Source: Maribacter sp.
GTDB lineage: Bacteria; Bacteroidota; Bacteroidia; Flavobacteriales; Flavobacteriaceae
Assembly (NCBI GenBank): GCA_011050675.1
Contig: DRFI01000020.1
Location: 558,001 to 622,000 of the forward strand
DNA length: 64,000 nt
Direction: 5' to 3'
Shown piece after piece: positions 15,108-49,993 of this stretch. A program made the position numbers and the translations under genes. The first letter of the stretch is position 1, and each line of letters begins with the position of its first letter. The notes under the pieces are model-generated. The model ran no database searches. It worked only from the letters and a program-made list of their open reading frames with translations, and had not been told where the DNA came from.

Positions 15108-15182
15108 CCATAGCATAAGTAGGTTAAGTTCATGGTAAGATTTGGGGCAAAAAAGGTGGAGACTTCTCCGCCTTTTTTATTT
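15108..15182 (+). ncRNA. Small RNA-like unit RNA1, copy 1
   Basis: The core occupies 15108-15147, starting CCATAGCATAAGTAGG and ending TAAGATTTGGGG. CCAT can pair with ATGG 20 bases later, leaving AAGATTTGGGG single-stranded. The terminator stem GGTGGAG-ACTT-CTCCGCC lies at 15155-15172, followed by six T. A -7-like box, TACTTTTA, lies at 15094-15101. Predicted transcript is about 70-75 bases. No reading frame of note. Confidence 0.75.
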
Positions 15183-15303
15183 TCATAACTCAAGGTTTCC
15201 ACAATTTGTAAACCTTTTCTGCCTAATGCTCCCTTTAACGTTATTTCGAGAAGTTCAGCCAATACCTTTCCTATTCTTTATTAAGGCGATTACATTTACA
15301 GAA

Positions 15304-15373
15304 CCATAGCATAAGTAGGTTAAGTTCATGGTAAGATTTGGGGAAAAAGACGGAGCAATGCTCCGTCTTTTTA
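15304..15373 (+). ncRNA. Small RNA-like unit RNA1, copy 2
   Basis: The 40-base core at 15304-15343 is identical to copy 1. It is preceded by TACATTTA (15291-15298), a one-mismatch match to TAnnTTTG, 13 bases upstream of the core. The terminator stem GACGGAGC-AAT-GCTCCGTC lies at 15349-15367, followed by a T-run. The terminator stem differs in sequence from copy 1 but keeps full pairing. Confidence 0.77.
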
Positions 15374-15503
15374 TTTTGCACCAATTTTTAATTTCTCTTC
15401 CATAAATTATCATCCAAAATTCACCTTTTGCATTACAACCTAAGTTTGAGACTTACAACGAATAGCTTTTTTATAAACGCCCTATCGCTATATATTTACA
15501 GAA

Positions 15504-15573
15504 CCATAGCATAAGTAGGTTAAGTTCATGGTAAGATTTGGGGAAAAGACGGAGCAATGCTCCGTCTTTTTAT
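15504..15573 (+). ncRNA. Small RNA-like unit RNA1, copy 3
   Basis: The core at 15504-15543 is identical to copies 1 and 2. The -7-like box TATATTTA (15491-15498) is 13 bases before it. The terminator has the same GACGGAGC/GCTCCGTC stem as copy 2, followed by TTTTT. Bases flanking the core on both sides (CAGAA before, TATTTT after) are shared with copy 2, suggesting copies 2 and 3 arose by recent duplication. Confidence 0.77.
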
Positions 15574-15710
15574 TTTATACCAATTGGCTTATCTTTTAGA
15601 CAGTTACCCACTCCCATTAACTCCTTATAAAAGTACTTCCGTAAAATAAAAGTGTAATTTTTTCTTAAAATTCCTTTTTTTATTTACTCAATACCAGTAA
15701 TTTAGTCTTG

Positions 15711-15785
15711 CCATAGCATAAGTAGGTTAAGTTTATGGTAAGATTTGGGACGAAAAGGGTGGAGACTTCTCCGCCCTTTTCTATT
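15711..15785 (+). ncRNA. Small RNA-like unit RNA1, copy 4
   Basis: The core at 15711-15749 has one C-to-T change relative to the others. The change extends the CCAT/ATGG helix to CCATA/TATGG, so pairing is kept or improved. The -7-like box is TAATTTAG (15698-15705). The terminator stem GGGTGGAG-ACTT-CTCCGCCC lies at 15757-15776 and resembles copy 1 rather than copies 2 and 3. Confidence 0.73.
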
Positions 15786-15796
15786 TTTAAAAACGA

Positions 15797-15830
15797 AAAA
15801 ACCACCCATGAAATTTTCATAAGTGGTTTC
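15797..15830 (-). terminator. Terminator of sodA
   Basis: A hairpin AACCAC-N2-ATGAAA / TTTTCAT-N2-GTGGTT lies 34 bases past the sodA stop, with A-runs on the plus strand that read as T-runs in the sodA direction. It can act in both directions, so it may also back up RNA1 copy 4. Confidence 0.75.
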
Positions 15831-15863
15831 CTACAAAGCAGTTAAGAATATTTCTACTCTTTT

Positions 15864-16472
15864 TTACTTGTTACTTGCATAAAGTTTTGAAACTTCCTCC
15901 CAGTTAATTAGGTTGAAAAATGCTTCAATATAATCTGGTCTCTTATTTTGGTAATTTAGGTAATATGCATGTTCCCAAACGTCTAATCCTAAAATTGGGT
16001 GACCTCCACAGCCAACTCCTGGCATTAAAGAATTATCTTGGTTTGGAGTAGAACATACTTCTACCTTACCACCTTTATGAACACATAACCATGCCCAACC
16101 AGAACCAAATCTTGTACCTGCAGCAGTTGTAAATTTATTTTTAAATTCTTCGAAAGAACCAAAAGCACTAACAATAGCTTCTGCCAATTCGCCGCTAGGT
16201 TTTCCACCACCGTTTGGTGATAAGATTGTCCAGAATAATGAGTGGTTGTAAAAACCTCCACCGTTATTTCTAACAGCACCATTGTTCATATCCAAACCAG
16301 TTAAAATATCTTCTATTGATTTACCTTCAAGATTGGTACCTTCAATAGCAGCATTTAATTTCGTTGTATATCCGTTATGGTGTTTTGTATGATGTATTTC
16401 CATTGTCCTCGCATCTATATGTGGCTCAAGAGCATCATAAGCGTAAGGCAGTTTCGGTAATTGAAAAGCCAT
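15864..16472 (-). CDS. sodA: Superoxide dismutase (Mn/Fe)
   Basis: This 202-residue cytosolic enzyme converts superoxide to hydrogen peroxide and oxygen. Metal ligands are visible: His in [11 protein letters not shown], His in FYNHSLFW, and Asp and His in [18 protein letters not shown]. No signal peptide. Choice between Mn and Fe cannot be made safely from sequence. It is a single gene; a perfect -7 box TAGTTTTG lies on the minus strand at 16509-16516, about 36 bases before the ATG. Confidence 0.96.
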
Positions 16473-16591
16473 AATTTATTTGTTTTAAGATTAATATTAA
16501 TAGTCACTCAAAACTACGAATTTTAACATTTATATTCACCAAATAATTTGTTAAGAACCGTATAGGAATCCTTAATTTGCAGTAAAAACTA

Positions 16592-19500
16592 GTGTCAAGT
16601 AATTCATTTACCATATATAATGCTTCTGCAGGATCCGGCAAGACCTATGCCCTTGCTAAAGTATACCTCAAAATTATACTGGCATCTCCTCAAAATTTTA
16701 GAAAAATATTAGCTATCACATTTACCAACAAAGCGGTAAATGAAATGAAGCACCGAATATTAAATAGCCTATTCGAGTTTTCTAAAACCAATTCTATTGA
16801 AGATGCCTCACCTTTATTTAAGGATATACTAAATGAAACCAATTACACTTTTGAAGAACTACCCGCACTAGGCAAACTTCGTTTAAAGCAAATTTTGCAC
16901 AATTACGCTTTTTTTGATATTTCTACTATAGATAAGTTTACCCACAGACTCATAAGAACATTTGCTAAGGATTTAAAAATCCCGCAAAATTTTGAAGTTG
17001 TTCTAGATGTAGATCTTCTTTTGCAAGAAGCTGTTGAACGAGTTATTAGCAAAGCTGGCGAAGACCCTGTATTTACAAAAGTCCTTTTAGATTTTGCACT
17101 AGAAAAAATTGAAGATGATAGAAGTTGGGATATTGCATTCGACCTCTTGAAAATCGGTAAACTTATATTCGATGAAAATAATGCCGATCATCTAAAACAC
17201 TTAAAACAAGTAGAACTTGGAGATTTTTTAAAGCTTCAAACCCATCTTAAAAAAGAAACACGACAGCTAGAGGAACGAATTATTGAACTCGCTTCTAAGG
17301 CTCTTGAGATAATTGTTACCAGCGGATTGGATTATAAAGATTTTCCAAGGGAAACATTACCCAATCATTTTAAAAAAATACAGGCTGGTAATTTTACTCC
17401 TACCCAACTTTACAACAACAAGCTAGAAGATAATCTAATTGAAGGTAAAATAGTAAAAGCGACTATAAAAGACGCTCCACAAGATTTAGCACCACAATTA
17501 CTTGCCAATTATCAAGCTATTAAAGAGGTTATCTATAAAAGAGGTCTGTACGCAAACATCAATAGAAATATTATTCCTTTTGCTCTTCTTAATGCTATTC
17601 AAAAAGAATTAAAAATTATTCAGGAAGAAAAAGACCAGCTTTCCATTTCTGAATTCAATACTCTAATTGCAAAAGAAATTAAAGATCAACCTGCGCCTTT
17701 TATTTACGAGCGTCTAGGAGAAAAATATCGTCATTATTTCATTGACGAATTTCAAGATACGTCACAAATGCAATGGGAAAACCTTATACCATTAATAGGT
17801 AACGCCATGGAAGGCGAAGATGAGCTTGGTAACACGGGATCACTTTTTTTAGTAGGCGATCCAAAGCAAGCAATTTACAGATGGCGTGGTGGAAAAGCAG
17901 AACAGTTTCTTGAATTGGCAACGCACCAATCGCATCCATTTACTATAAAATCTGAATTGATAACTTTACCTAAGAATTATAGAAGTTATGCCGAAGTCAT
18001 AACTTTCAATAATAACTTTTTTCAAAGCATTAGTCCGTTTTTAGAAAACGAAGTCTATCAAGAGTTCTTTAAGCTTGGTAATACCCAAGAAACTAATCAG
18101 AAAGAAGGTGGCTATGTTCATATTTCATTATTAGAAGAAGATTCTGACGAGGAATATGTGACGAATACATTAGACATCATCAATAAATGTTTGGAGCAGG
18201 GGTATACCTATAGCGATATCTGTATTATTATACGTAAAAAGAAACATGGTCTTATATTGGCAGATTTCTTAATGCAACATAGTATACCCGTTGTATCATC
18301 AGATTCCTTATTACTTAGTGAGAGTGCCAAAACCATATTCTTGGTTCAACTTATTAAGTATATGGTTCAACCTACGGAACTAGAAATTCAATATGAAATT
18401 CTAAATTTTCTATCCGAAGGAAAAAAAGATAAGCATGCTTATATCTATGAAAATTTAGGCAACTTAGATACTCACTTATTAACTGTATACGGTTTTGACG
18501 CTTCTCAACTTAGACAGGCTTCGGTTTTTGATGGCTTAGCTTATGCCATTAAAACTTTTGACCTTATACCTTCTTCAGATGCCCACCTTTCTGCATTTAT
18601 GGATTTGGTTTTTGATGTGGAGCAGAAATATGGTTCGGACATGCAGTCCTTTTTAGATTATTGGGATAGGAAAGGTAATTCTGCCAGTATCAGTACTCCA
18701 GAAAATATAGAATCGGTACAGATTATGACCATTCATAAGTCTAAAGGCTTAGAATTTCCGGTGGTTATATTTCCATATGCAAATTCGAATGTATTTGAAG
18801 AAATAGATCCTAAACTATGGCTGCCGGTTAACAAAGATGAATTTCTTGGCTTTTCAGAAGTACTAATCAATAAAAAACAAGAGGTACAGGAATACGGCGA
18901 AATTGAATCACTTCTATATACTATTGATCACCAAAAGCTACAATTAGACGCCTTCAACCTATTATATGTTGTTCTTACTAGAGCCGTAAATGCCCTGTTT
19001 ATTATAAGCGCTAACAATCTTGACAAAAAAGGAGACCATAACCCTAATTACTATTCCGGACTATTTATCCATTTTCTAAAAAGTATAGGCGCTTACCAAC
19101 AAGATAAGCTAACTTATGATTTTGGTGATTTCTCTTTAAATGAAGTCAAAAAACATACTACTACAGACCAACTTACTATACCTTATATATATACCAACAA
19201 AAATAGAGCAGACTTTAAGATACTTGCTTTGGCAGGTACACTTTGGGATGAAGGTTTAGATGTCGCTATTAACCAAGGGAATGTTATACATTATATTTTA
19301 GGTGCTATTTACACCACTATCGATTTAGATAGGGCTATACAAATGGCACTACAAAAGGGATTGATTAAAGAACAGGAAGTAAAAGAGATAAAGGAAATTG
19401 TAAAAAAGGTAATCCTTCATAAAGATTTGACCCAATTTTACAAAAAAGGCATAGAAGTTTTAAACGAGCGCGATCTATTAATGGCAGATGGTACAATACA

Positions 19501-19687
19501 AAGACCAGATAGGGTTGTTATTAAAGACAATCATGCTACCATAATAGATTATAAAACAGGAGAACAAAACCCTAAATACCACCATCAATTGAATACTTAT
19601 GCAGAGAGTTTTTTAAATATGGGATATACTATTGATCACAAAATCATTGTGTATATTAATACAGAAATAGAATTAGATTATATATAA
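16592..19687 (+). CDS. AddA-like UvrD-family helicase with C-terminal nuclease domain
   Basis: This 1031-residue ATP-dependent DNA helicase-nuclease starts at a GTG, right before NASAGSGKTYALAK (Walker A, residues 10-23). Further superfamily 1A motifs are AITFTNKAVNEMK, YFIDEFQDTSQMQW, VGDPKQAIYRWRGG, LPKNYRS, IMTIHKSKGLEFPVV and LYVVLTRA. The C-terminus has a RecB-type PD-(D/E)XK nuclease core (RPDRVVI, then IIDYKTGEQN). Such proteins work with an AddB-type partner to process double-strand breaks and degrade foreign linear DNA. The likely partner is at 22418, two genes away. Confidence 0.9.
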   Translation: MSSNSFTIYNASAGSGKTYALAKVYLKIILASPQNFRKILAITFTNKAVNEMKHRILNSLFEFSKTNSIEDASPLFKDILNETNYTFEELPALGKLRLKQILHNYAFFDISTIDKFTHRLIRTFAKDLKIPQNFEVVLDVDLLLQEAVERVISKAGEDPVFTKVLLDFALEKIEDDRSWDIAFDLLKIGKLIFDENNADHLKHLKQVELGDFLKLQTHLKKETRQLEERIIELASKALEIIVTSGLDYKDFPRETLPNHFKKIQAGNFTPTQLYNNKLEDNLIEGKIVKATIKDAPQDLAPQLLANYQAIKEVIYKRGLYANINRNIIPFALLNAIQKELKIIQEEKDQLSISEFNTLIAKEIKDQPAPFIYERLGEKYRHYFIDEFQDTSQMQWENLIPLIGNAMEGEDELGNTGSLFLVGDPKQAIYRWRGGKAEQFLELATHQSHPFTIKSELITLPKNYRSYAEVITFNNNFFQSISPFLENEVYQEFFKLGNTQETNQKEGGYVHISLLEEDSDEEYVTNTLDIINKCLEQGYTYSDICIIIRKKKHGLILADFLMQHSIPVVSSDSLLLSESAKTIFLVQLIKYMVQPTELEIQYEILNFLSEGKKDKHAYIYENLGNLDTHLLTVYGFDASQLRQASVFDGLAYAIKTFDLIPSSDAHLSAFMDLVFDVEQKYGSDMQSFLDYWDRKGNSASISTPENIESVQIMTIHKSKGLEFPVVIFPYANSNVFEEIDPKLWLPVNKDEFLGFSEVLINKKQEVQEYGEIESLLYTIDHQKLQLDAFNLLYVVLTRAVNALFIISANNLDKKGDHNPNYYSGLFIHFLKSIGAYQQDKLTYDFGDFSLNEVKKHTTTDQLTIPYIYTNKNRADFKILALAGTLWDEGLDVAINQGNVIHYILGAIYTTIDLDRAIQMALQKGLIKEQEVKEIKEIVKKVILHKDLTQFYKKGIEVLNERDLLMADGTIQRPDRVVIKDNHATIIDYKTGEQNPKYHHQLNTYAESFLNMGYTIDHKIIVYINTEIELDYI

Positions 19688-19693
19688 AGGAAT

Positions 19694-20887
19694 ATGTACG
19701 GAAAAATAAAAGAGCATTTACAGCAAGAAATTGAAAACATTAAGAACGACGGACTCTTTAAAGAGGAAAGAATTATTGTTTCTCCTCAAGATGCGGTCAT
19801 AAAAATAGATACGGGTCAAGAAGTAATAAATTTCTGTGCCAACAACTATTTAGGACTATCATCTCACCCAGATGTTATTCAAGCAGCGAAAGATGCAATG
19901 GATACACATGGTTTTGGTATGTCTTCAGTCCGGTTTATTTGTGGCACCCAAGATATACACAAAGAGCTTGAGAAGAAAATAGCACATTTCTATGGTACCG
20001 AAGATACCATTTTATATGCTGCTGCCTTTGACGCCAACGGCGGAGTATTTGAACCACTACTATCTAAAGAAGATGCCATAATTTCAGATTCTTTAAATCA
20101 TGCCTCTATAATTGACGGTGTTCGCTTGTGTAAAGCTATGCGTTACCGTTATGCTAATAGCGATATGCAAGATTTGGAAGCACAGCTTATTAAAGCCAAC
20201 AAAGATGGTGCACGTTTTAAGATCATAGTTACCGACGGGGTATTTTCTATGGATGGTATTGTAGCACCTTTAGACAAAATATGCGACCTGGCAGATAAGT
20301 ATGATGCTTTGGTTATGATAGATGAATGCCATGCAACCGGTTTTATTGGTGAAAAAGGTAAAGGCACCTTGGAAGAAAAAGGTGTTATGGGTAGAATTGA
20401 TATTATTACCGGTACGCTAGGTAAAGCTTTAGGTGGTGCCATGGGTGGTTACACTACAGGTAAAAAAGAAATCATCACTTTGCTAAGACAACGCTCAAGA
20501 CCCTATTTGTTTTCTAACTCGTTAGCACCTGCAATTGTTGGTGCATCTATTAAGGTATTTGATATGTTAGAAAACGATACTTCTTTACGAGATAAATTGC
20601 AGGAAAATACTGCATACTTTAAAAAAGGCATCAAAGCTGCTGGTTTTGATATAGTTGACGGCGATTCTGCCATAGTACCCGTAATGTTATACGATGCAAA
20701 ATTATCACAAGACATGGCCAATAAGTTATTGGAAAAAGGCATTTATGTAATCGGGTTTTTCTATCCAGTAGTACCAAAAGGGAAGGCACGAATTAGAGTT
20801 CAACTGTCTGCAGCGCACTCAAAGGAACATCTAGATGCTGCCATTAAAGCTTTCACAGAAGTAGGGAAAGAATTAAAAATCGTTTAA
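19694..20887 (+). CDS. kbl: Glycine C-acetyltransferase (2-amino-3-ketobutyrate CoA ligase)
   Basis: This 397-residue PLP enzyme of the alpha-oxoamine synthase family interconverts 2-amino-3-ketobutyrate plus CoA with glycine plus acetyl-CoA in threonine breakdown. Motifs include [39 protein letters not shown] and the PLP lysine in [15 protein letters not shown]. It begins 7 bases after the AddA-like gene and may be co-transcribed with it. No threonine dehydrogenase gene is in the window. Confidence 0.94.
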
Positions 20888-20935
20888 ATGCATTATTTAA
20901 TCTATTAAATGCATTAAAAAAAATAGGAAATTGAT

Positions 20936-20966
20936 TTTGTTAATAATATTTAACAAGTTACATTTG
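20936..20966 (+). promoter_or_regulatory. Strong Bacteroidota-type promoter of the OmpA gene
   Basis: TTTG at 20936-20939, exactly 19 bases, then TACATTTG at 20959-20966. Both elements match the -33/-7 consensus perfectly, in keeping with high expression of an abundant outer-membrane protein starting at 21001. Confidence 0.85.
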
Positions 20967-21000
20967 CAGCTAATAAACACTTAAACTTAAAATTTAATAC

Positions 21001-22344
21001 ATGAAACATCTTAGCAAATTATTGGCGGTTGCCCTACTTGTAGTAGGTATCAACAGCATACAAGCGCAAGACGAGAATAACCCTTGGCAAGTGCAATTTG
21101 GGGTTAATGCCATTGACGTATATCCTACTTCGGATGTAAGTTCTTTCGGTAACGAATTCTTCAATGTGAACGATCACTGGAACATTTTACCTTCTATTTC
21201 TTATGTAGGAGTATCTAAGTCAATCGGAGATGGTTTCTCTGTTGGTGCTAGAGGTTCTCTTAACAAAATCAGCAAATTTGGTGACGTTAGCGTTGACGAT
21301 CTTTCTCACTACGCTATAGATGGTACAATTAAATATGATATCATAAAAAGACAAACTGTTATCGATCCTTTTATTGAAATCGGTGGTGGTTATACTTGGA
21401 TCGACGAAATCGGTGCTGGTACTGCAAATGGTGGTATTGGTGTAAATATCTGGTTTTCTGAAAACTTAGGTCTTACTTTACAATCTTCTTATAAGCATGC
21501 TTTCGAAGATTACCTTGCTCCACACATGCAACATTTAGCTGGTATTTCAGTTAAATTTGGTGGAACTGATACTGACGGTGATGGTATCTACGATAAAGAT
21601 GATGCTTGTCCAGAAGTTGCTGGTCTTGAAGCATTCAACGGTTGTCCTGATTCTGACGGCGATGGTATCGAAGACAGCAAAGATGCTTGTCCTAACGAAG
21701 CTGGTTCTAAAGAAATGAATGGATGTCCTGATGCTGACGGTGACGGTGTTGCTGATAAAGATGACGCTTGTCCAAACGAAGCTGGTCTTCCTGCTTTAGC
21801 TGGTTGTCCTGATGCTGATGGTGATGGTGTTGCTGATAAAGATGACGCTTGTCCTTCTGAAGCTGGTCCTGCTGAAAACAAAGGTTGTCCTTGGGCTGAT
21901 AAAGACGGTGACGGAGTATTAGACAAAGATGATCAATGTCCTGATGTTGCTGGTACAGTAGCTAACGCTGGTTGTCCTGAAGTAACTGCTGAAGTACAAA
22001 AGCAATTGAACGATTATGCTAGAACTATCTTATTTGACACTGGTAAATCTTCTATCAAAGCTGAGTCTACTTCTGTAATGGTTGACATTATCACAATCCT
22101 TAAAGAATACCCTAACGCTAAGTTTACTGTTGAAGGTCATACTGACAGCGTAGGTAGCGAAAAATTAAACCAAAGCCTTTCTGAGTCAAGAGCTCTTTCT
22201 GTAAAAGAATTCTTAGTTGACAAAGGAATTGAAGAGTTTAGATTATCAGCAGTTGGTTACGGTGAGGCTAAGCCTATCGCAACAAACAACACTAGAACTG
22301 GTAGAACTCAAAACAGAAGGGTAGAAATTAACTTAGTAAAATAA
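21001..22344 (+). CDS. OmpA family outer-membrane protein with TSP3 calcium repeats
   Basis: This 447-residue protein has a signal peptide ([23 protein letters not shown]). About 170 residues of an 8-strand-type beta-barrel follow, then five thrombospondin type-3 repeats with DxDGDGxxD calcium sites and CP motifs (about residues 190-330). A C-terminal OmpA peptidoglycan-binding domain has [16 protein letters not shown] and the NRRVEI end. It anchors the outer membrane to the cell wall. Between repeats the DNA is nearly repetitive (GATGCTGATGGTGATGG types). It sits between the two halves of the AddAB pair. Confidence 0.94.
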
Positions 22345-22376
22345 GTTTAAAACAAACCTTAAGTGTTTTAATAAAT

Positions 22377-22407
22377 AAAAGCTCCGCTATATTGCGGAGC
22401 TTTTTTA
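22377..22407 (+). terminator. Terminator of the OmpA gene
   Basis: The stem AAAGCTCCGC / GCGGAGCTTT is followed by T. It lies just ahead of the AddB-like ATG at 22418, so that gene probably depends on read-through or a promoter inside this short gap. Confidence 0.85.
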
Positions 22408-22417
22408 TTTTTACACC

Positions 22418-25159: not shown

Positions 25160-25161
25160 GC

Positions 25162-40868: not shown

Positions 40869-40921
40869 GATAAAAAGTGTTGATTATAACTCTAAATTTA
40901 CAATTTAATTAAATTGCTTCA

Positions 40922-41422: not shown

Positions 41423-41434
41423 AAACTATATTTT

Positions 41435-42769
41435 TTGAAAACGTCCGTTAACTTTAAATCTATAAATGCCTTAGCCATTCCTGCTACTATTGCCGGTATA
41501 GCCGAACCTTTATTGTCCATAACAGATACGGCCATTGTAGGGAATATTCCCGTTGACGGATTAGAATCTTTAGCTGCCGCTGGTATTGTAGGTTCTTTTC
41601 TTTCTATGCTCATCTGGATTCTTGGGCAAACCAGAAGTGCTATTTCAGCAATTATTTCTCAGTATTTAGGCGCTGGTAGATTAGAAGAAGTTAAAACATT
41701 ACCCGCACAAGCCATTTACCTCAACATTGCTTTGAGCATACTTGTTTTACTCTCTACCATATTTGTAATTCAAGAAATATTCGAGCTTTTAAATGCTAAA
41801 GGAAAAATACTTCAATACTGTATTAGTTACTATTCTATTCGCGTTTGGGGATTTCCATTAACCTTGTTTGTATTTGCCGTAATGGGTATATTTAGGGGAC
41901 TACAGAATACGTACTGGCCAATGGTCATTGCCATAACAGGAGCCGTATTAAATGTAATTCTTGATTTTGCCTTTGTATATGGTATTGAAGGGTTCATACC
42001 CGCCATGTATTTAGATGGTGCTGCTTATGCAAGTTTGCTGGCACAAGGAATAATGGCGATCATGGCATTTTATTTACTTTGGACAAAGACAGATATTAGC
42101 CTAAAACTAAAATTACCAATGCATCCAGAATTAGGTCGGTTAATCATCATGAGCCTAAATCTATTCGTACGTGCCATTGCCCTCAATACCGCTCTTATAC
42201 TTGCTGTACGAGAGGCAACTGCTCTTGGTGATAAATACATTGGTGCGCATACCATTGCTATAAATCTTTGGCTATTTTCTGCCTTTTTTATAGATGGTTA
42301 CGGTGCGGCCGGCAATATTATGGGCGGCAGGTTATTGGGAGAAAAGAACTATGATGAACTTTGGGTTCTCGTCAAAAAAATAACAAGATACGGTCTCTTA
42401 GTAAGTGTAGTTATCATGGCACTAGCGACAATTTTCTACAAACCCTTGGGAAGCCTATTTTCTAACGAGAGTATAGTGCTATCTGCTTTTTACGGCGTCT
42501 TTTATATTATTATTCTAGGGCTTCCTGTAAATACAATTGCCTTTGTTCTTGATGGCGTTTTTAAAGGTCTAGGTGAAATGAAATATTTACGAAACACCTT
42601 ACTCATAGCTACATTCTTAGGTTTTGTACCAATGCTATTTTTAGGAAAATATCTTAACTGGGGGTTAACGGGAATTTGGCTTGCCTTTACCGTTTGGATG
42701 TTTATACGGGGCGCTGCTTTGGTGTGGAAGTTTAGAAACAAGTTTAAACCTTTATTGCAAAATCCGTAA
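41435..42769 (+). CDS. MATE family efflux transporter
   Basis: This 444-residue inner-membrane protein has 12 hydrophobic helices. It resembles the DinF-like branch of MATE cation/drug antiporters: INALAIPATIAGIAEPLLSITDTAIVG at the N-terminus and FGVMGIFRGLQNTYWP-like VMGIFRGLQNTYWPM centrally. The start is a TTG, 13 bases after the GNAT stop; no ATG is available before the first conserved helix. Exported compounds are unknown. Confidence 0.9.
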   Translation: MKTSVNFKSINALAIPATIAGIAEPLLSITDTAIVGNIPVDGLESLAAAGIVGSFLSMLIWILGQTRSAISAIISQYLGAGRLEEVKTLPAQAIYLNIALSILVLLSTIFVIQEIFELLNAKGKILQYCISYYSIRVWGFPLTLFVFAVMGIFRGLQNTYWPMVIAITGAVLNVILDFAFVYGIEGFIPAMYLDGAAYASLLAQGIMAIMAFYLLWTKTDISLKLKLPMHPELGRLIIMSLNLFVRAIALNTALILAVREATALGDKYIGAHTIAINLWLFSAFFIDGYGAAGNIMGGRLLGEKNYDELWVLVKKITRYGLLVSVVIMALATIFYKPLGSLFSNESIVLSAFYGVFYIIILGLPVNTIAFVLDGVFKGLGEMKYLRNTLLIATFLGFVPMLFLGKYLNWGLTGIWLAFTVWMFIRGAALVWKFRNKFKPLLQNP

Positions 42770-42850
42770 TTTTGCGTGAACAACCTCAGGTCAATCCCAC
42801 GAGGTATTTGTAATACGATTACCTTAATATTTCGAGTCAAATAAAATACT

Positions 42851-43618
42851 ATGGTTACTACAAGAAAGAATGGAAGTTTATATACCCGAATAGATGGTAA
42901 AGTTGCCCATGTAGAATTTGGACACCCTGCCAGTAATTCGTTTGTTTCTGAATTGTTACAACGCCTTACCGACACTATCAATGAACTTTCTGACAACGAA
43001 GCAATAACTGTTATCCTTCTAAAATCTGAAGGAGAAAAAGCATTTTGTGCCGGCGCTTCTTTTGATGAACTTTTAGAGGTCTCTAACCTAGAGGAAGGCA
43101 AAGCATTCTTTAGTGGTTTTGCTCATGTGATCAATGCCATGAGAAAATGTAAAAAAGTAATTGTAGGTCGTGTACATGGTAAAACCGTTGGTGGTGGTGT
43201 TGGTCTTGCCGCTGCTTGTGATTATGTGTACTCTAATGTTAACGCATCAATAAAACTATCGGAACTTAGTATAGGTATTGCTCCTTTAGTTATTGCACCT
43301 GCTGTAGCACGTAAAATAGGAACTGCTGCCTTAGGTGAAATGTCACTAGCTCCTACCGAATGGAAGAGTGCCTATTGGGCTCAAGAAAAAGGACTGTTCT
43401 CTAAAGTATATGACTCTGCACAAGAAATGGATAAAGAACTTGACTTCTTTATACACAAATTAGCGAGCTACAATCCTGATGCTTTAGCCGAATGGAAGAA
43501 AGTTTTATGGGAAGGTACCGACCATTGGGATACCTTATTGACAGACCGCGCTTCTATTACCGGAAAATTAGCACTTTCCGATTTTACTAGAAATGCACTG
43601 TCTAAATTTAAAAAATAA
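42851..43618 (+). CDS. Enoyl-CoA hydratase/isomerase family protein
   Basis: This 255-residue crotonase-fold enzyme has an oxyanion-hole region AFCAGASFDELL and GKTVGGGVGLAAACDYV, with SELSIGIAPLVIAP following. Family members hydrate or isomerise acyl-CoA esters in fatty-acid or amino-acid breakdown. Which reaction this member performs is not clear; the two glutamates of classical hydratases are not both obvious. Confidence 0.88.
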   Translation: MVTTRKNGSLYTRIDGKVAHVEFGHPASNSFVSELLQRLTDTINELSDNEAITVILLKSEGEKAFCAGASFDELLEVSNLEEGKAFFSGFAHVINAMRKCKKVIVGRVHGKTVGGGVGLAAACDYVYSNVNASIKLSELSIGIAPLVIAPAVARKIGTAALGEMSLAPTEWKSAYWAQEKGLFSKVYDSAQEMDKELDFFIHKLASYNPDALAEWKKVLWEGTDHWDTLLTDRASITGKLALSDFTRNALSKFKK

Positions 43619-43662
43619 ACAATAACTGAAACAGCGGTTCGTTCTGTTTCTAAATAATTATT

Positions 43663-43776
43663 ATGGAATTCTTTCAATTTTTAAACGGAAACCTTGTTTT
43701 TCCAGTGCTAGCACTGTCTGTATTGATCATCTATTTTGTAAATAAAGTACGCGCAAAAAGAAAATACAAAAGGTAA
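43663..43776 (+). CDS. Small single-pass membrane protein, 37 residues
   Basis: A 38-codon frame starts at an ATG 45 bases after the enoyl-CoA hydratase stop. The product starts MEFFQFLNGNLVFP, has a hydrophobic segment VLALSVLIIYFV and a basic tail KVRAKRKYKR, the layout of an inner-membrane microprotein with a cytosolic positive tail. No homologue comes to mind. It may be expressed with the upstream gene. Confidence 0.5.
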   Translation: MEFFQFLNGNLVFPVLALSVLIIYFVNKVRAKRKYKR

Positions 43777-43832
43777 TCTAATACCCTACGCAACTATTTT
43801 GCACTTGCACATCTTTTAATAAAGCTGTCTTT

Positions 43833-44258
43833 ATGTACGCAAAACTCTTTCTAGTATTTCTATCCCTATTTCTTGTTGCCTGTAACGACAAAAACGATAC
43901 CGAACTACAAGATTGTTCTATGACCGCTTGCACTCTTAATTTTGTTATTATTACCGTTAGTGTCAAAGACACTTCAGACAATGTGGTGGTGTTAGGTGGT
44001 TACGAGATTATTGAAGAAGTAACTGGAGAAGACATATCGGTAGATTTTAATAATGAAGAATACCAATATTTTAAAGAACAAGGTATTTACCCTGTTCTTA
44101 GTGATGCTTACCGCACTCGATACCAGAATTCTACTGCAACACTTACTTTCAAAGGTTATGTTGCTAATGAAGAAGTTATTAACGAAGCCTATGAAGTTGG
44201 TGCAGACTGCTGCCATATTAGCTTAATCTCTGGAAATACAGAGATTGTTTTAGAATGA
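43833..44258 (+). CDS. Hypothetical lipoprotein
   Basis: This 141-residue protein has a lipoprotein signal (MYAKLFLVFLSLFLVAC). The mature part has four further cysteines (DCSMTACT and ADCCH) and beta-rich character (VVVLGGYEIIEEV, ATLTFKGYV). I do not recognise a family. It is probably anchored to a membrane facing the periplasm. Confidence 0.7.
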   Translation: MYAKLFLVFLSLFLVACNDKNDTELQDCSMTACTLNFVIITVSVKDTSDNVVVLGGYEIIEEVTGEDISVDFNNEEYQYFKEQGIYPVLSDAYRTRYQNSTATLTFKGYVANEEVINEAYEVGADCCHISLISGNTEIVLE

Positions 44259-44314
44259 TTTCTAAGCTATAAATCCTTTCAAAGTTCCCTACCTTTACCA
44301 TATAATAATAGGCT

Positions 44315-44764
44315 ATGAGCAATATTCGTATTACCAAACAATTCAATTTTGAAACCGGTCATGCACTTTACGGTTACGACGGTAAATGTAGAAATGTACA
44401 CGGTCATAGCTATAAATTATCAGTAACTGTTATTGGTCGTCCTATTACCGATACCAGCCATGTAAAATTAGGAATGGTAATAGATTTTAGCGATTTAAAA
44501 AAGATTGTGAAAGAAGATATCGTTGACATCTTTGATCATGCTACTGTTTTCAATAAGAATACACCACACGTAGAACTTGCAAAAGAATTGACAGATAGAG
44601 GGCACAATGTAATTCTAGCCGATTACCAACCTACCAGCGAAAATATGGTTATCGATTTTGCTGCAAAAATACAGTCTAGACTTCCTAAGAACATTTCATT
44701 ATTCTCTCTTAAACTTCAAGAAACCGATACCTCTTTTGCAGAGTGGTATGCCAGCGATAATTAA
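44315..44764 (+). CDS. queD: 6-carboxytetrahydropterin synthase
   Basis: This 149-residue enzyme of the 6-pyruvoyltetrahydropterin synthase/QueD family acts in queuosine precursor synthesis. Visible are the zinc histidines in NFETGHALYGYDGKCRNVHGHSY, with the catalytic cysteine between them, GMVIDFSDLK, FDHATVFN and the C-terminal LQETDTSFAEW. It is a single gene with a TACCTTTA -7-like element shortly upstream. Confidence 0.92.
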   Translation: MSNIRITKQFNFETGHALYGYDGKCRNVHGHSYKLSVTVIGRPITDTSHVKLGMVIDFSDLKKIVKEDIVDIFDHATVFNKNTPHVELAKELTDRGHNVILADYQPTSENMVIDFAAKIQSRLPKNISLFSLKLQETDTSFAEWYASDN

Positions 44765-44847
44765 GTTCAACTAAACTTAACCGTTTACTTTCTTTACATC
44801 GATTAAAATTGTTTTATTTTAAGGGTAATCTCTTAATATGAAATAAC

Positions 44848-45834
44848 ATGGTAAAGCATCACATTTATTGGTGGAATCTTGAAAACCTATTCGATATTGA
44901 AAATTCCCCTAGAAGAAGTGAGTTTTTAAATAAACATTTAGGCAAAGAACTTGACGGATGGAGTGTTACCGTTCTAGAGCAGAAAATTACCAACCTCACT
45001 TCAATTATATCAAAATTTAACAACAACGAAGGACCGGATATCTTAGGCGTTTGCGAGGTTGAAAATGAATATGTTATTGAATTGCTCATTGCCTCTATGA
45101 GCGCTGCGCTTAATAAAAACTACGCATTTGTAATTTCTGAAGGTGATGACAAACGAGGCATTGACACCGCTCTTATATATGATAAGGACAAATACGGTCC
45201 AGAACAGTCCACGTTTAGTTTAAGAATCATTAAAAGAAATACTACTAGAGATTTATTCCAAGTTCATATTAATACTACAAATGGCAACAAGCTTGTTTGC
45301 ATACTTAACCATTGGCCTTCTAGATCAGGAGGAGAATTAGAAAGTGAACCTTTTAGAATTATGGTAGCGGAGAATTTATCGTATTGGATTGAAAGAATTT
45401 ACGAGGAACAGGGTAAAGATGCCAATATTTTACTGATGGGCGATTTTAACGACAATCCGTATAACAAGAGTATTACCTCGTATTTAATGGCAATCAATAA
45501 TAAAGCTTTAGTAAAAAGTAATCGAGCACGGTTAAAGTATTTCTATAATGTAATGCATAAGTTTTTAGATGCTCAAATTGGAACATTCGTCTTTGGTAAC
45601 GAATATAATATGCTAGACCAGTTTATGATTTCTAAAAGTATCTTATCTGAAAAATCTGAATTACCTTTTAAATTAAGTTCGGTAGCTATTATTGACTACC
45701 CAGAGTTAACTTCTGGTTCTTATCAAAAACCGGTAAAATTCGGCAGACCTAATTCATCCACATTTAATACAAACGGATACAGTGATCACCTCCCAATAAA
45801 AATAGTTCTTAACGAAAAAGATGCATCCGTGTAA
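44848..45834 (+). CDS. Endonuclease/exonuclease/phosphatase family protein
   Basis: This 328-residue protein of the EEP fold has an Asn/Glu start in YWWNLENLFDIE, the metal-binding glutamate in ILGVCEVENEYV, catalytic His in ILNHWPSRSGGE, Asp and Asn in LLMGDFNDNPYN, and the terminal SDHLPIKI motif. It has no clear signal peptide. Substrates in the family range from DNA to phospholipids and this cannot be settled. Confidence 0.9.
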   Translation: MVKHHIYWWNLENLFDIENSPRRSEFLNKHLGKELDGWSVTVLEQKITNLTSIISKFNNNEGPDILGVCEVENEYVIELLIASMSAALNKNYAFVISEGDDKRGIDTALIYDKDKYGPEQSTFSLRIIKRNTTRDLFQVHINTTNGNKLVCILNHWPSRSGGELESEPFRIMVAENLSYWIERIYEEQGKDANILLMGDFNDNPYNKSITSYLMAINNKALVKSNRARLKYFYNVMHKFLDAQIGTFVFGNEYNMLDQFMISKSILSEKSELPFKLSSVAIIDYPELTSGSYQKPVKFGRPNSSTFNTNGYSDHLPIKIVLNEKDASV

Positions 45835-45917
45835 GTTAGAGTGGTTATTTAAACCATTTCTTATTTTGACCCTCGTATTCACGTGATACGCAAAACAGTT
45901 ATTATCTTTACATTCTG

Positions 45918-46682
45918 ATGACAAACATTGAACTTCCTGCAGGGAAAAAAGTATATTTTGCTAGCGACAATCACCTAGGTGCACCTACTATGAAAGAAAG
46001 TAGGCAGAGAGAACTCAAATTTGTTCGTTGGTTAGACACGATTAAATCTGATGCAGCAGCTATTTTCTTAATGGGCGATTTGTTCGATTTTTGGTTTGAA
46101 TACAAAACCGTAATTCCAAAAGGATTTACCAGAACCTTAGGAAAACTTGCAGAACTGTCTGATGCCGGTATAAAAATTTACTATTTCGTAGGTAATCATG
46201 ATCTATGGATGAACGGTTACTTTGAAGAAGAGTTAAACATACCTGTATATCATAAACCTCAACAATATTCCATAAACGGTGTTTCTTTTTTTATAGGCCA
46301 TGGTGACGGATTAGGACCAGATGATAAGGGTTTTAAAAGAATGAAGAAGGTTTTCACGAATCCCCTAGCTAAATGGTTCTTTAAATGGCTGCATCCAGAT
46401 ATTGGAGTTCGGTTGGCTAAACATTTATCTGTTAGCAATAAATTGATCAGCGGTGACGATGATGCCAAATTCTTAGGTAATGATAAAGAATGGCTTGTGC
46501 TATATGCACACAGAAAATTAGAACAACAACATTACGACCATTTTATATTTGGTCACAGACATTTGCCGTTGGAGATAAAACTGAAGGAAAATTCAAAATA
46601 CACCAATCTTGGTGACTGGATTAATTATTACACCTATGCCGAATTTGATGGCAAGGGACTTTCTTTGAAAGAATTTAGCTAA
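45918..46682 (+). CDS. lpxH: UDP-2,3-diacylglucosamine diphosphatase-like metallophosphoesterase
   Basis: This 254-residue calcineurin-type phosphoesterase has metal motifs ASDNHLG, MGDLFDFWFEY, VGNHDLWM, IGHGDG and FGHRHLP. The spacing and the FDFWFEY block fit the LpxH family, which cleaves UDP-2,3-diacylglucosamine in lipid A synthesis at the inner membrane. The exact substrate is inferred from family resemblance. Confidence 0.85.
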   Translation: MTNIELPAGKKVYFASDNHLGAPTMKESRQRELKFVRWLDTIKSDAAAIFLMGDLFDFWFEYKTVIPKGFTRTLGKLAELSDAGIKIYYFVGNHDLWMNGYFEEELNIPVYHKPQQYSINGVSFFIGHGDGLGPDDKGFKRMKKVFTNPLAKWFFKWLHPDIGVRLAKHLSVSNKLISGDDDAKFLGNDKEWLVLYAHRKLEQQHYDHFIFGHRHLPLEIKLKENSKYTNLGDWINYYTYAEFDGKGLSLKEFS

Positions 46683-46802
46683 ATATCAGCAAAAACATCG
46701 ACGAACTACACATTTTTATTTGTAATCCTTTTCTTACAACAAGAATTAAGGTGTTCACAACAATAGTTTTATAAAACTAGCTCTTGGTTATATCTTTACA
46801 GT

Positions 46803-46925
46803 GTTATTAAGTTTGAGTGTTGATCCCAAATCTTCACATTACCTACAAGTTTACCCTCTTAATGACCCAAATCTTAAGCATACCTACCTTAAAGAACAGC
46901 CCCTATTTTAGGGGCTTTTTCGTTG
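46803..46925 (+). ncRNA. Small RNA-like unit RNA2, copy A
   Basis: A -7-like box TATCTTTA (46791-46798) precedes about 120 bases with no reading frame, ended by the stem AGCCCCT-ATTTT-AGGGGCT (46898-46916) and TTTTT. Two internal modules share one pattern: CCCAAATCTT at 46825-46834 with ACCTAC at 46841-46846, and CCCAAATCTT at 46866-46875 with ACCTAC at 46882-46887. The second CCCAAAT lies in the loop of a CTTAA/TTAAG hairpin. Both modules are complementary to the RNA1 core (15108-15749 array). Confidence 0.72.
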
Positions 46926-47167
46926 TTTAGAATTATCTTCACTCGAAAATTTAAAAATAATTTACTTAATATATCATTGATTCATTATCGACCAATATTT
47001 AGCTATTATAAATTAATATAAGTTAAAACAACGAGTATTCTTTTTCTTAAACCTCAAAAATGGCGCTTAACAAGAAAAAATAATTCAAGGAAGTAATCGG
47101 ATATAAATCTATGTTCTATTCAGACTATCAAAAAAATGCTAATTATAGTATGTGGCAGGAATTGAAT

Positions 47168-47200
47168 ACTAAAGTTAGCTTTATGCAGACTTTAGTTAGC
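47168..47200 (+). promoter_or_regulatory. Controller-protein operator/promoter of the R-M operon
   Basis: ACTAAAGT (47168-47175) and its exact reverse complement ACTTTAGT (47189-47196) are separated by 13 bases; both are followed by TAGC. TAGCTTTA at 47177-47184 resembles a -7 box and sits between the arms. The right arm ends 5 bases before the controller ATG (47202), so the mRNA would have almost no leader. The half-site ACTAAAGTTA recurs before the methylase gene. Confidence 0.65.
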
Positions 47201-47201
47201 A

Positions 47202-47435
47202 ATGGAATCTAAACACGAAATACTAAATTTATTCGGAAAAAACGTCAGAAAATACAGACGCTTACTCAATATTTCACAAGAAGAATTAGCACATAGAGCT
47301 GACCTTCACAGAACTTATATTGGAATGATTGAAAGAGCTGAAAAAAATATTACTCTCGTAAACATTGAAAAAATTGCTAATGCTTTAGAAGTCAAAATTG
47401 ATGATTTATTAAGACAAAGCAATGGCAAAGAATAA
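47202..47435 (+). CDS. R-M controller (C) protein, XRE family
   Basis: This 77-residue HTH protein, NVRKYRRLLNISQEELAHRADLHRTYIGMIERAEKNITL, is typical in size and sequence of type II restriction-modification controller proteins. These bind paired operators and time restriction enzyme expression after methylase. It overlaps the nuclease gene by 14 bases, so the two are one operon. Putative binding sites lie just upstream and before the methylase. Confidence 0.88.
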   Translation: MESKHEILNLFGKNVRKYRRLLNISQEELAHRADLHRTYIGMIERAEKNITLVNIEKIANALEVKIDDLLRQSNGKE

Positions 47436-48324
47436 AAAGTACAAATTAGCAGAAGAGTTTTTTATAGCAGAAAAGACAAGTGACGTATTCATGGAAGTTG
47501 AATTTGAATACGAAACACAAAAATGGAAAGGGTTACTACCTAAATTTTTAAAGTTTCAAGGCTTAGACTTAACAGAAGAAGATTTTTATAATTCTATAGA
47601 GGAATCATACAACATTCTAAATCCTAAAAATCGTCTGAAATGGATTACTGAAAGTGATTTACTTTGGTTAGCTTCTCAAAAAGAAACTCAAACCTATAAA
47701 GTTCTTCGAGCATTACACTCAGGAAATTGGGAATGTAGAGTTTGTGGTCCAGTACCAGCTGAAAATCCACAGCCAGCAGCTCGTTTAGGAGCTTTAAAAA
47801 AGCAAGGTTATATAATTGGTTCAAAAAGGAAACAATGTACTTCATGTTCTAAAAAAACCATGCATGATATTTTAGTTATGCTTCCAAAAATCCAATCAAA
47901 ATTTGAAGATGGAAACGAATTACGAGCTTCAATGTCTGAAAAGCTTAAAGAACGAATCAAAAAAATGTTAGGTAAAAAAGAAGTTTGCTTCAATGTAAAA
48001 AGAACTTCGGTCGAACTTATTGTTGACCACAAATTTCCTTCTCAAAGATGGATAACAAAAGAATCTGCTAATCCAGATGATATGCCTGAAACTCAAATTC
48101 GTAAAAAATTTCAGTTATTGAGCAATCAAACCAATATGTGGAAATCAAGGTTTTGTGACAGTTGTGTAAAAACGGGAAAACGAGGAGACTTTATGGGTAC
48201 AAAATGGTATTATCAAGGAGATGAAAATTGGAATGGTAAGACTGAAAATGATGAAAATGGTTGTGTTGGTTGTCCGTGGTACGATTTGGAATTTTGGAAA
48301 GAAAAATTAAATGAAAAACTATAA
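47422..48324 (+). CDS. Type II restriction endonuclease, HNH type with zinc-binding cysteines
   Basis: In this 300-residue protein Cys105-x2-Cys108 and Cys139-x2-Cys142 enclose a winged-helix-like zinc segment. Asp202-His203 in ELIVDHKFPSQRW starts a beta-beta-alpha-metal HNH motif, continued by FQLLSNQTNMWKSRFC with likely catalytic Asn. Cys245-x2-Cys248 and Cys281-x2-Cys284 fit a structural zinc site around it. Placement between a C protein and a m5C methylase supports its being the restriction enzyme of the pair. The recognition sequence cannot be deduced. Confidence 0.82.
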   Translation: MAKNKKYKLAEEFFIAEKTSDVFMEVEFEYETQKWKGLLPKFLKFQGLDLTEEDFYNSIEESYNILNPKNRLKWITESDLLWLASQKETQTYKVLRALHSGNWECRVCGPVPAENPQPAARLGALKKQGYIIGSKRKQCTSCSKKTMHDILVMLPKIQSKFEDGNELRASMSEKLKERIKKMLGKKEVCFNVKRTSVELIVDHKFPSQRWITKESANPDDMPETQIRKKFQLLSNQTNMWKSRFCDSCVKTGKRGDFMGTKWYYQGDENWNGKTENDENGCVGCPWYDLEFWKEKLNEKL

Positions 48325-48335
48325 ATTTTTTGCAT

Positions 48336-48365
48336 ACTAAAGTTATCATTGTTTTTATAAATTTG
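48336..48365 (+). promoter_or_regulatory. Methylase promoter with a controller half-site
   Basis: ACTAAAGTTA (about 48336-48345), the same half-site as before the controller gene, lies upstream of a perfect -7 box, TAAATTTG (48358-48365), 19 bases before the methylase ATG. The controller could therefore repress or activate the methylase as well as its own operon. Confidence 0.6.
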
Positions 48366-48384
48366 CGGTAGAATATAAAATATT

Positions 48385-49749
48385 ATGAATAAAAATTTAA
48401 CATTTGGTAGTGTATGTTCAGGAATTGAAGCTTCTCAATTGGCGTTCTCACCATTTGGTTTTGAGCAACTTTGGAGTTCAGAAATTGCAGAATTCCCATC
48501 AAAAGTACTTGAACACCATTTCCCTGACATTCCAAATGTTGGAGACATGATTAATATTCCTAATTCAATTCTAAATCGTGAATATGAAGCACCTGACCTA
48601 TTTTGTGGAGGAACACCTTGCCAAGCTTTTTCATTAGCAGGTTGGAAAAATGGTCTTGCTGACGAAAGAGGACAATTAACAATGACTTTTATTGAAATTG
48701 CAAACGCAATAGATAAAATTCGACTGGAAGACGGTAAAGACAAAAGTATTGTTCTTTGGGAGAATGTAGAAGGAGCATTAAACGACAAAACAAATGCTTT
48801 TGGAAATTTTATTGCAGGTTTAGCAGGTTTTGAGGAAGAAATTAAAGTAAGTAAATGGACTAAATCAGGTTATTTAGAAGGTAAAGAAAGAAATGTTGCT
48901 TGGAGAGTAATTGACGCAAAGTATTTTGGACTTCCACAACAAAGAAAAAGGCTATATGTTCTTGCAGGCGGCAAAGACTTTAAACCAGACCAAGTACTTT
49001 TTGAATTCAACAACAAAGACATTGTAAAAGAACTTAAATTAAAAGCTAAAAAGAGTTCTTCAAATAGCCCTAATTTATTCTTAACAAAGAGCACAGAAAA
49101 AGAAAAGGAATTGGTTTTTAACAACCAAGGAGTGAAATTGGAAGTCTTTAGAGAGTATACCGATTGTTTATATGCAGCTTACGGGACAAAATGGAACGGA
49201 AACGCAGCAGCTTACAACGGTTCATTATACGTATCTGAAAACGATAAGATTAGACGACTTACACCTTTAGAATGTGAACGACTAATGGGTTTTCCTGACA
49301 ACTACACAAAAGTTAACGGAAATAGTCATACAAATAGATTTCAAGCAGTAGGTAATTCTTGGGCAGTTCCTGTCGTTAAATGGATTGGTAGTCAGATTAA
49401 TGCGTTTACAGACAAAAAAACTGAAAATGAATTTAACGAGTGGAAAAAAGCTATTCAACCAAAAAAGAACAAACTAAACGCATTATTATATTTACTTGAT
49501 GGAACAAATCAAATAAGTAAATTTGAATATCTAAATTCTTCAAACATTCCAAACAATCCAATTTTTGGAGATTTAAAAAACGTTATTGAACCAAATCACG
49601 CATTAGATAAATTCTATTTGAGTTCTAAAGCATGTGCAGGAATATTAAGACGTAAAAATGAACGCAATATGAATATGAATGCGGAATTGGAAATATTAAT
49701 GGCAAGAATTAGTAAAGGCGATAAATTACAGACTGAAAAGAAAAGCTAG
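48385..49749 (+). CDS. DNA (cytosine-5-)-methyltransferase
   Basis: This 454-residue methylase of the R-M pair has motif I GSVCSGIEASQLAF, motif IV FCGGTPCQAFSLAGW with the catalytic Cys79, motif VI ENVEGAL, motif VIII region RRKRLYVLAG-like QQRKRLYVLAGG, motif IX RRLTPLECERLMGFPDNY and motif X NRFQAVGNSWAVPVVKWIG. The target recognition region lies about residues 210-285. A C-terminal extension of about 100 residues follows motif X. It has its own promoter. Confidence 0.95.
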   Translation: MNKNLTFGSVCSGIEASQLAFSPFGFEQLWSSEIAEFPSKVLEHHFPDIPNVGDMINIPNSILNREYEAPDLFCGGTPCQAFSLAGWKNGLADERGQLTMTFIEIANAIDKIRLEDGKDKSIVLWENVEGALNDKTNAFGNFIAGLAGFEEEIKVSKWTKSGYLEGKERNVAWRVIDAKYFGLPQQRKRLYVLAGGKDFKPDQVLFEFNNKDIVKELKLKAKKSSSNSPNLFLTKSTEKEKELVFNNQGVKLEVFREYTDCLYAAYGTKWNGNAAAYNGSLYVSENDKIRRLTPLECERLMGFPDNYTKVNGNSHTNRFQAVGNSWAVPVVKWIGSQINAFTDKKTENEFNEWKKAIQPKKNKLNALLYLLDGTNQISKFEYLNSSNIPNNPIFGDLKNVIEPNHALDKFYLSSKACAGILRRKNERNMNMNAELEILMARISKGDKLQTEKKS

Positions 49750-49887
49750 CAAAAAATAATGGCTATAACTAATGATAGTTTTACCGTAGAGTAAAAATTA
49801 TCGCAAGTAATGAAGTATAGTTAAATCTGAAAGTTATTTCTTCCAAAATCCTTAATAACTATAACCTAAACGGTATCGTTTATATTA

Positions 49888-49993
49888 AGTGTTGATTCCC
49901 AAATCTACAGTTACCTAAAAGTTCCCCCACTTAAGACCCAAATCTTAAGTACCACCTACAATAAAAAAAGCTCCTGAATTAGGGGCTTTTTTT
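49888..49993 (+). ncRNA. Small RNA-like unit RNA2, copy B
   Basis: The layout is as in copy A: TATCGTTTA (49874-49882) as a possible -7 box, then a first module CCCAAATCT (49898-49906) with ACCTA (49913-49917), and a second module CCCAAATCTT (49937-49946) with ACCTAC (49954-49959). The second module forms a perfect hairpin ACTTAAG/CTTAAGT whose 8-base loop is ACCCAAAT. The terminator stem AGCTCCT/AGGGGCT (49969-49987) is followed by seven T. Sequence between conserved blocks differs from copy A. Confidence 0.72.

Follow-up and report, generated by a model that had tools for sequence, protein, structure and literature searches.

Tandem small RNAs and a family of predicted multi-site decoy RNAs in Maribacter and other Flavobacteriaceae

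RNA1 and RNA2 in the window

A 64,000-nucleotide (nt) stretch of Maribacter sp. (GenBank assembly GCA_011050675.1, contig DRFI01000020.1, forward-strand positions 558,001 to 622,000), here called the window and numbered from its first base, carries an array of small RNA (sRNA)-like units, RNA1, and two units of a predicted partner RNA, RNA2, all on the plus strand. RNA1 comprises four tandem units between 15106 and 15786, designated a (15106..15182), b (15302..15376), c (15502..15575), and d (15709..15786), each with a 41-nt core (ACCATAGCATAAGTAGGTTAAGTTCATGGTAAGATTTGGGG) followed by a terminator; the last copy shows small changes in the core and a single C to T substitution in its hairpin. 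All units contain GTAGGT, 12 nt, and then AAGATTTGGG, and the predicted fold of unit a consists of the core hairpin, its loop exposing GTAGG, then unpaired sequence that includes GATTTGGGG, and finally the terminator hairpin. An earlier note on this DNA had described this arrangement, with its free stretch between hairpin and terminator, and both the sequence and the predicted fold bear it out. Counting both strands, AAGATTTGGG occurs seven times in the window against 0.13 expected, on the plus strand in RNA1 at 15137, 15333, 15533, and 15740 and as the complement in RNA2 at 46825, 46866, and 49937.

RNA2a (46800..46924) is a predicted decoy RNA that has a terminator and two sites for RNA1; it matches the RNA2 model at E 1.4e-27, the model being built partly from RNA2a. 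Both of its sites (46825..46846 and 46866..46887) read CCCAAATCTT, 6 nt, ACCTAC. Its promoter (46733..46799) consists of CTTACAACA at 46733-46741, 12 nt, TTCACAACA at 46754-46762, and a -7 box, TATCTTTAC, at 46791-46799; the leader model described below matches it at 46754-46823 with E 1.7e-16, this promoter itself belonging to the set from which that model was built. RNA2b (49874..49998) has a shortened first site (CCCAAATCT, 6 nt, ACCTA; 49898..49917) and a second site (CCCAAATCTT, 7 nt, ACCTAC; 49937..49959) that lies partly within an 8-bp stem. The two exact sites per RNA2 molecule proposed in the earlier note are thus present in RNA2a, whereas RNA2b has one exact and one shortened site, so that three of the four sites are exact. 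The bipartite pattern CCCAAATCT-N2-14-ACCTA occurs eight times in the window (the four RNA2 sites and the complements of the four RNA1 units) and not once in 60 shuffles of the whole window.

In relatives, about 380 bp separate the two RNA2 units, and their flanks show homology to the ends of the window's phosphoesterase and major facilitator superfamily genes. The window's units are split by an inserted restriction-modification module (47205-49746) encoding a helix-turn-helix control protein, an ICEA-like nuclease, and a C5 cytosine methylase. RNA2b has no leader-model match, and the TTCACAACA promoter of the relatives was not found there; since homology to their second unit starts only at 49878, the usual RNA2b promoter is missing. 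On one side of the RNA1 array is an amidotransferase-domain gene (13103-15001), and on the other, encoded on the minus strand, an Fe/Mn superoxide dismutase gene (15864-16472). The window also encodes an RNase III (8181..8915, minus strand; Pfam Ribonuclease_3 and dsrm), which is a candidate processing enzyme with no link shown to either RNA. A scan of the whole window with Rfam 15 returned only a tRNA, with RNA1 and RNA2 below every gathering cut-off; RNA1 and one RNA2 locus of the family, L115, gave Rfam matches below threshold only.

Upstream of unit d lies CAATACCAGTAaTTTAGT (15660-15710), which is highly conserved and differs from the sequence upstream of the other copies; 81 related promoters are present in the fetched loci. 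The RNA2 promoter model gives a weak match just upstream of unit c (15462-15500, E 0.045). We do not claim a regulator common to RNA1 and RNA2, as repeat-like upstream sequence is present at the middle RNA1 copies only and the offset scan was not clear.

The RNA2 family and its pairing with RNA1

Allowing up to 3 mismatches, the RNA1 core was found in 111 of 299 Flavobacteriaceae genomes and 91 of 236 genera, the reversed pattern used as a control giving 0 in every row of the counts. Among the matches listed are Maribacter, Zobellia, Arenibacter, Flagellimonas/Allomuricauda, Cellulophaga, Robiginitalea, Eudoraea, Pricia, Kordia, and others. After removal of off-type matches the core is present in 24 of 25 Maribacter genomes, the sole match of G008 being off-type. 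Copy number is 1 in 46 of the 111 genomes and 2-7 in the remaining 65. The exact bipartite pattern had no match in 15 genomes from other families of the order. Phage-borne copies were considered and rejected: the RNA1 core is in 0 viral contigs, and three matches to an RNA2 17-mer lack both the promoter and a second block in their surroundings.

RNA2 likewise extends well beyond the window. The source genome has a third locus (RNA2c, L129; G000:C17:196027-196153), with an HflX-like GTPase gene on one side and a DUF3078 gene on the other, and loci across the family follow a common plan: TTCACAACA, 28-29 nt, TAnnTTTAC, the leader ATTGTAATTAAGTGATAGTGTTGA, and then the sites CCCCAAATC...TGAACTTAACC, CCCAAATC...AACCTAC, and CCAAATTTTAC...ACCTACTTA before a terminator, some members being without all three. 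The three block pairs are all complementary to RNA1, the third with one G-U pair. In several cases the loci are tandem copies, and the sequence between sites varies widely, whereas RNA1 is fixed over about 40 nt. From the conserved promoter and terminator we predict a stand-alone RNA2 transcript.

Maribacter also carries a single-site relative, an RNA-like unit of ~60 nt (L001/L430; G000:C4:87243) with a long RNA1 site, its own terminator, and TTGACAACT upstream. Its pattern was matched in 22 of 32 genomes, not all of the matches shown to be the same locus. We read 20 of the 23 listed matches, L416 among them in an unrelated context, and 19 of the 20 pair with RNA1 beyond all 300 mononucleotide shuffles (the exception is L424). 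The two RNA2 units recognized in the earlier note belong to a wider family than it described.

A first covariance model of RNA2, R1, matched 178 of 299 genomes at E<=0.01 and was dropped, as 15 of the 30 loci read looked unrelated, with a terminator-like hairpin and little else. Because R1 was unspecific it was replaced by R2, a leader-only model of 70 promoter and leader positions that ends before the first pairing site. R2 matches 56 of 299 genomes and 48 of 236 genera at E<=1e-3. At E<=1e-4 it matches 51 of the 65 genomes with at least two RNA1 copies and none of the 234 others (0 of 46 single-copy genomes and 0 of 188 without RNA1), in a table that joins the RNA1 and R2 genome counts by hand and assumes the same 299 genomes from matching handles. 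The families thus co-occur across genomes, a check that the earlier note had proposed and a property expected of a sponge and its sRNA, with other promoters of the same type among the matches and phylogeny uncorrected.

Duplex prediction points in the same direction. The test took 88 of 97 loci (68 RNA2, 13 RNA3, a unit with the same promoter that is described below, and 7 small-protein loci), nine with a short tail or a partial model match being excluded. For the 68 RNA2 loci, part of which come from the R1 search that favours pairing sites, the median energy of the duplex between RNA1 and the 120 nt past the leader is -30.9 kcal/mol, with a median z of -3.81, and 50 of the 68 pair better than all 100 shuffles. 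The 41 RNA2 loci obtained via or after the leader-only search (L138 and up, several of them also weak R1 matches) give a median z of -3.8. When 20 shuffled RNA1s were set against the RNA2 loci, the mean of the medians was -18.9 kcal/mol; RNA3 gave a median z of +0.51 with 0 of 13 units better than all shuffles, and the reverse complement of RNA2 (0 of 68) and reversed RNA2 (1 of 68) behaved similarly. Strict bipartite RNA1 sites average 2.06 per RNA2 against 0.225 in shuffles, with at least one site in 64 of 68 loci and at least two in 55 of 68, compared with 0 of 13 for RNA3. At one unit, L115, the duplex reaches -48.0 kcal/mol, with both RNA1 blocks matched at once in antiparallel order. Pairing between RNA1 and RNA2 is thus strongly supported as a prediction: the RNA2 family shows the extended, conserved complementarity to an sRNA seed beyond chance that is looked for in a sponge RNA, and the window pair taken alone shows it weakly.

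A small-protein mRNA and RNA3 under the same promoter

The promoter with TTCACAACA repeats is common to RNA2, RNA3, and the gene of a ~35-residue protein (M..Q.N....IQVYRNDFFSG...LTKKLFML) whose mRNA combines this RNA2-type promoter with an RNA1 match at its start region. At L166/L407, the small-protein mRNA has an RNA2-type leader with the RNA1 site beside the ATG. The protein has a basic, hydrophobic C-terminal half and no Pfam or NCBIfam match above cut-off, and in several genomes is encoded near a GNAT-like gene, as read from translations. It is present in all 31 Maribacter genomes searched and, at E<=2e-6, in 48 of 299 family genomes, all of them within the 65 with multi-copy RNA1 according to lists compared by hand. 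For 29 small-protein leaders, taken from the best 30 of 55 matches, pairing with RNA1 has a median z of -2.99, with 20 of 29 below -2 and 9 of 29 beyond all 200 shuffles. Ordinary gene starts (250 of 438 leaders used) give a median z of +0.16, with 14 of 250 below -2. Since RNA1 matches an mRNA that shares the promoter of RNA2, RNA2 looks like a target mimic.

In 71 of 85 promoters the TTCACAACA repeats (at least 7 of 9 matches) have an offset of exactly 21 bp; each other offset from 9 to 31 accounts for no more than 2 of the 85. This is the 9-12-9 direct-repeat layout (9-bp repeats 12 bp apart) of LytTR-type regulators. The source genome encodes 21 LytTR domains, none linked to the TTCACAACA promoters. 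RNA3, under the same promoter as RNA2, is an sRNA-like unit that contains AATTTTTTCATTTTCATATAGTGTTCTCG, has a terminator, and lacks RNA1 complementarity; in two genomes it adjoins a TPR histidine kinase gene (L362 and L363, Pfam-checked for L362). A highly conserved CATATAGTGTTCTC is present at the RNA3 loci L167, L169-L171, L175, L177, L179, L180, L182-L184, L186, and L204.

A proposed decoy circuit and known sponge RNAs

We consider it probable that RNA1 is a repressor sRNA and that RNA2 is a family of sponge decoys copying the leader of its target. From the conserved blocks, the co-occurrence, the common promoter, and the terminators, all of which are present in the sequences themselves, we infer that both RNAs are expressed and pair in the cell. 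RNA1 would act as a multi-copy base-pairing sRNA with two seeds, one on the loop side of the hairpin (AGTAGGTTAAGTT) and one in the free stretch GATTTGGGG, and would repress at least one co-occurring target, blocking translation of the small-protein mRNA through base pairs formed a short way upstream of the start codon. RNA2 molecules would be stand-alone noncoding decoys, with the target's promoter and leader copied and a terminator of their own. Most carry one to three sites for RNA1, and each molecule would titrate RNA1 and perhaps mark it for decay. A single regulator at the TTCACAACA direct repeats would raise target and decoy together, freeing the target from RNA1; with decoy and target induced from a common promoter, RNA1 would be overcome as soon as it is outnumbered by decoy sites. 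More tentatively, the whole may form a Flavobacteriaceae-wide, Hfq-independent module in which one signal-responsive LytTR-type regulator induces the small protein and its leader-mimicking decoys against an amplified, nearly invariant repressor sRNA. If so, the sharp threshold at which the small protein and any other RNA1 target respond would depend on the ratio and copy number of array and decoys.

Several observations weigh against this reading. In the window itself, the duplex energy was reached by shuffled RNA2 in 124 of 1000 cases for RNA2a and 95 of 1000 for RNA2b, and by shuffled RNA1 in 87 of 1000 and 54 of 1000, respectively. Taken alone, the window thus shows the motif and no striking duplex; the pairing proposed in the earlier note goes well beyond shuffled controls for the RNA2 family and is unremarkable for the window pair. 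Four of the 68 RNA2 loci have no strict site, and the second site is degraded in RNA2 units of three Maribacter genomes (G011, G016, and G021) in which RNA1 is unchanged, so that reciprocal covariation is not shown. RNA1 is nearly invariant, which leaves no compensatory changes to compare, and its variants (G066, G293, G073, G299, G315, G124, and G200) are uninformative on covariation, coming from single-copy genomes without leader matches. Inside the blocks, substitutions lean slightly toward pair-keeping changes, a weak trend: 97 pair-keeping transitions at 1603 C/A cells (about 6.1%) against 23 pair-breaking ones at 550 T/G cells (4.2%), with 129 further pair-breaking transversions and many substitutions at block edges.

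The co-occurrence, too, has its exceptions. At E<=1e-3 the leader model misses 12 of the 65 multi-copy RNA1 genomes and gives weak matches in three genomes without RNA1 (G072, G162, and G190). Some leader-model matches are promoters of RNA3 or of the small protein rather than of RNA2, so that the co-occurrence concerns the promoter system as a whole; it may also stem from a single ancestral gain within one clade, and the Fisher value takes no account of phylogeny. Finally, 29 small-protein leaders of an all-Maribacter set pair weakly with RNA1 (median z -1.33, 0 of 29 below all 200 shuffles).

Alternative readings were weighed against the same evidence. RNA1 and RNA2 are both multi-copy with terminators and their complementarity is symmetric, which would also suit a reversed direction in which RNA2 RNAs regulate and are titrated by the RNA1 array as their sponge. 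We find this quite unlikely: single-copy RNA1 occurs in 46 genomes without an RNA2 leader match and hence has a role without RNA2, which argues for RNA1 as the regulator and RNA2 as a later antagonist; the sequence between RNA2 sites is free to vary where RNA1 is fixed; and RNA2 repeats sites for one partner, while the small-protein mRNA too has an RNA1 site. RNA2 units might instead derive from the small-protein mRNA, as remnants or as duplicates of its leader, and be ordinary RNA1 targets with no sponge effect that matters, given that promoter and leader are the same in both, that some Maribacter RNA2 sites decay, and that RNA2b of the window is without the usual promoter. An own terminator, at least two spaced sites in 55 of 68 loci, presence in many genera, and several tandem cases would be unexpected for remnants, and this explanation also appears unlikely to us.

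It is very improbable that a single nucleic-acid-binding protein recognizes the two sides on opposite strands and that their pairing is incidental. The blocks are indeed short and G- or C-rich, and RNA1 is more invariant than pairing alone seems to need, but L115 matches both RNA1 blocks at once in antiparallel order, spacers vary, and the reverse complement of RNA2 pairs better than all shuffles at none of the 68 loci. Neither Hfq (PF17209; 0 matches, with 5 of 14 control genomes matched, including E. coli and B. subtilis) nor RRM proteins were detected in the source genome, other RNA-binding proteins not being searched for. A module of toxin-antitoxin type, with RNA1 silencing a small toxic peptide, would fit the short small protein with its basic, hydrophobic C-terminal half and the RNA1 site abutting its start codon. 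Yet RNA1 is encoded in trans at a separate locus and in several copies, and the peptide lacks a Pfam or NCBIfam match over cut-off and is highly conserved, as its presence in 31 of 31 Maribacter genomes illustrates. High conservation is unusual for small toxic peptides of this type, and we hold such a module to be highly improbable as well. Cross-genus conservation, co-occurrence, and the controlled duplex statistics support the decoy reading, and with it the earlier note's suggestion of a dedicated RNA-RNA circuit that joins a multi-copy sRNA to a partner with several sites.

The accessible parts of the papers cited here describe related systems in other bacteria. QrrX of Vibrio cholerae is a stand-alone noncoding RNA with its own transcriptional activator that pairs with a conserved region of the sibling sRNAs Qrr1-4, in a system of one sponge gene and four dispersed siblings with Hfq and RNase E (PMC9732341). 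Functionally, the Maribacter case resembles it in that a separate noncoding RNA pairs with several sibling sRNAs; here, however, the siblings are tandem, the sponges are multi-copy with mostly 1-3 sites, promoter and leader are common to a small-protein mRNA, and no Hfq was detected. In Caulobacter crescentus, CrfA pairs with the common 10-nt core of four siblings, SisA-D, one of which, SisA, has a predicted pairing site in a target mRNA, upstream of the start codon (PMC12559287). These sRNAs belong to the alphaproteobacterial alphaR8 family and were studied with Hfq, and the accessible text describes neither a target-mimic leader nor a multi-copy sponge. RosA of Bacillus subtilis, a stand-alone sponge of RoxS and FsrA with its own regulator, uses G-rich regions that pair with C-rich regions of its partners (PMC8216469). 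It differs in its Firmicute host, CcpA control, and two partner sRNAs, and in Maribacter the C-rich side is that of the sponge.

Within Bacteroidota the nearest system found is FopS of Bacteroides thetaiotaomicron, a multi-copy sRNA family repressing mRNAs near their start codons (PMC11697453); its antagonist in the accessible text is the RNA-binding protein RbpB, in contrast to the sponge RNA proposed here. Membership of RNA1 in FopS (RF04319) was rejected, with a best score of 17.7 bits against a gathering cut-off of 56; no RRM protein was found in the source genome. The Rfp sRNAs of Flavobacterium psychrophilum, from the same bacterial family, are independent and in many cases condition specific, with Rfp18 described as a protease regulator; the accessible text describes no tandem array or sponge, and we set them apart by description, not by sequence (PMC9723704). 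In agreement with the earlier note, a literature search found no such pair described, most subscription papers being outside its reach. Within sponge RNAs, RNA2 would be new in being multi-site, multi-copy, target-mimicking, and apparently Hfq-free. The sponges compared come, as far as the accessible texts go, from Proteobacteria with Hfq and from Bacillus; the Maribacter case would add Flavobacteriaceae, with no Hfq or RRM protein detected, and an unusual logic in which a target's promoter and leader recur in its decoys. It would also place a promoter motif, a sister sRNA, and a small protein that is conserved within a single circuit, so that the function of an sRNA outside Rfam models, in 111 of 299 sampled genomes, becomes directly testable.

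Further candidates for RNA1 contact were sought among the AAGATTTGGG places of the source genome outside RNA1 and RNA2. Of these 25, 23 were read, and 20 of the 23 overlap an open reading frame (ORF) of at least 60 codons on either strand. The leads kept are the short decoy L001, L002, and the element ends L007 and L022. At L002 (G000:C4:110577), CCCAAATCTT ends 9 nt upstream of an in-frame ATG that is possibly the true gene start, making it a possible further RNA1 target. L007 and L022 (about 1496-1513; G000:C17 and G000:C20) are two copies of a possible mobilizable element with two ORFs, the first relaxase-like by eye. Homology between the two copies stops just past 16 nt identical to RNA1 (ATGGTAAGATTTGGGG), as if the end of the element were derived from an RNA1 copy.

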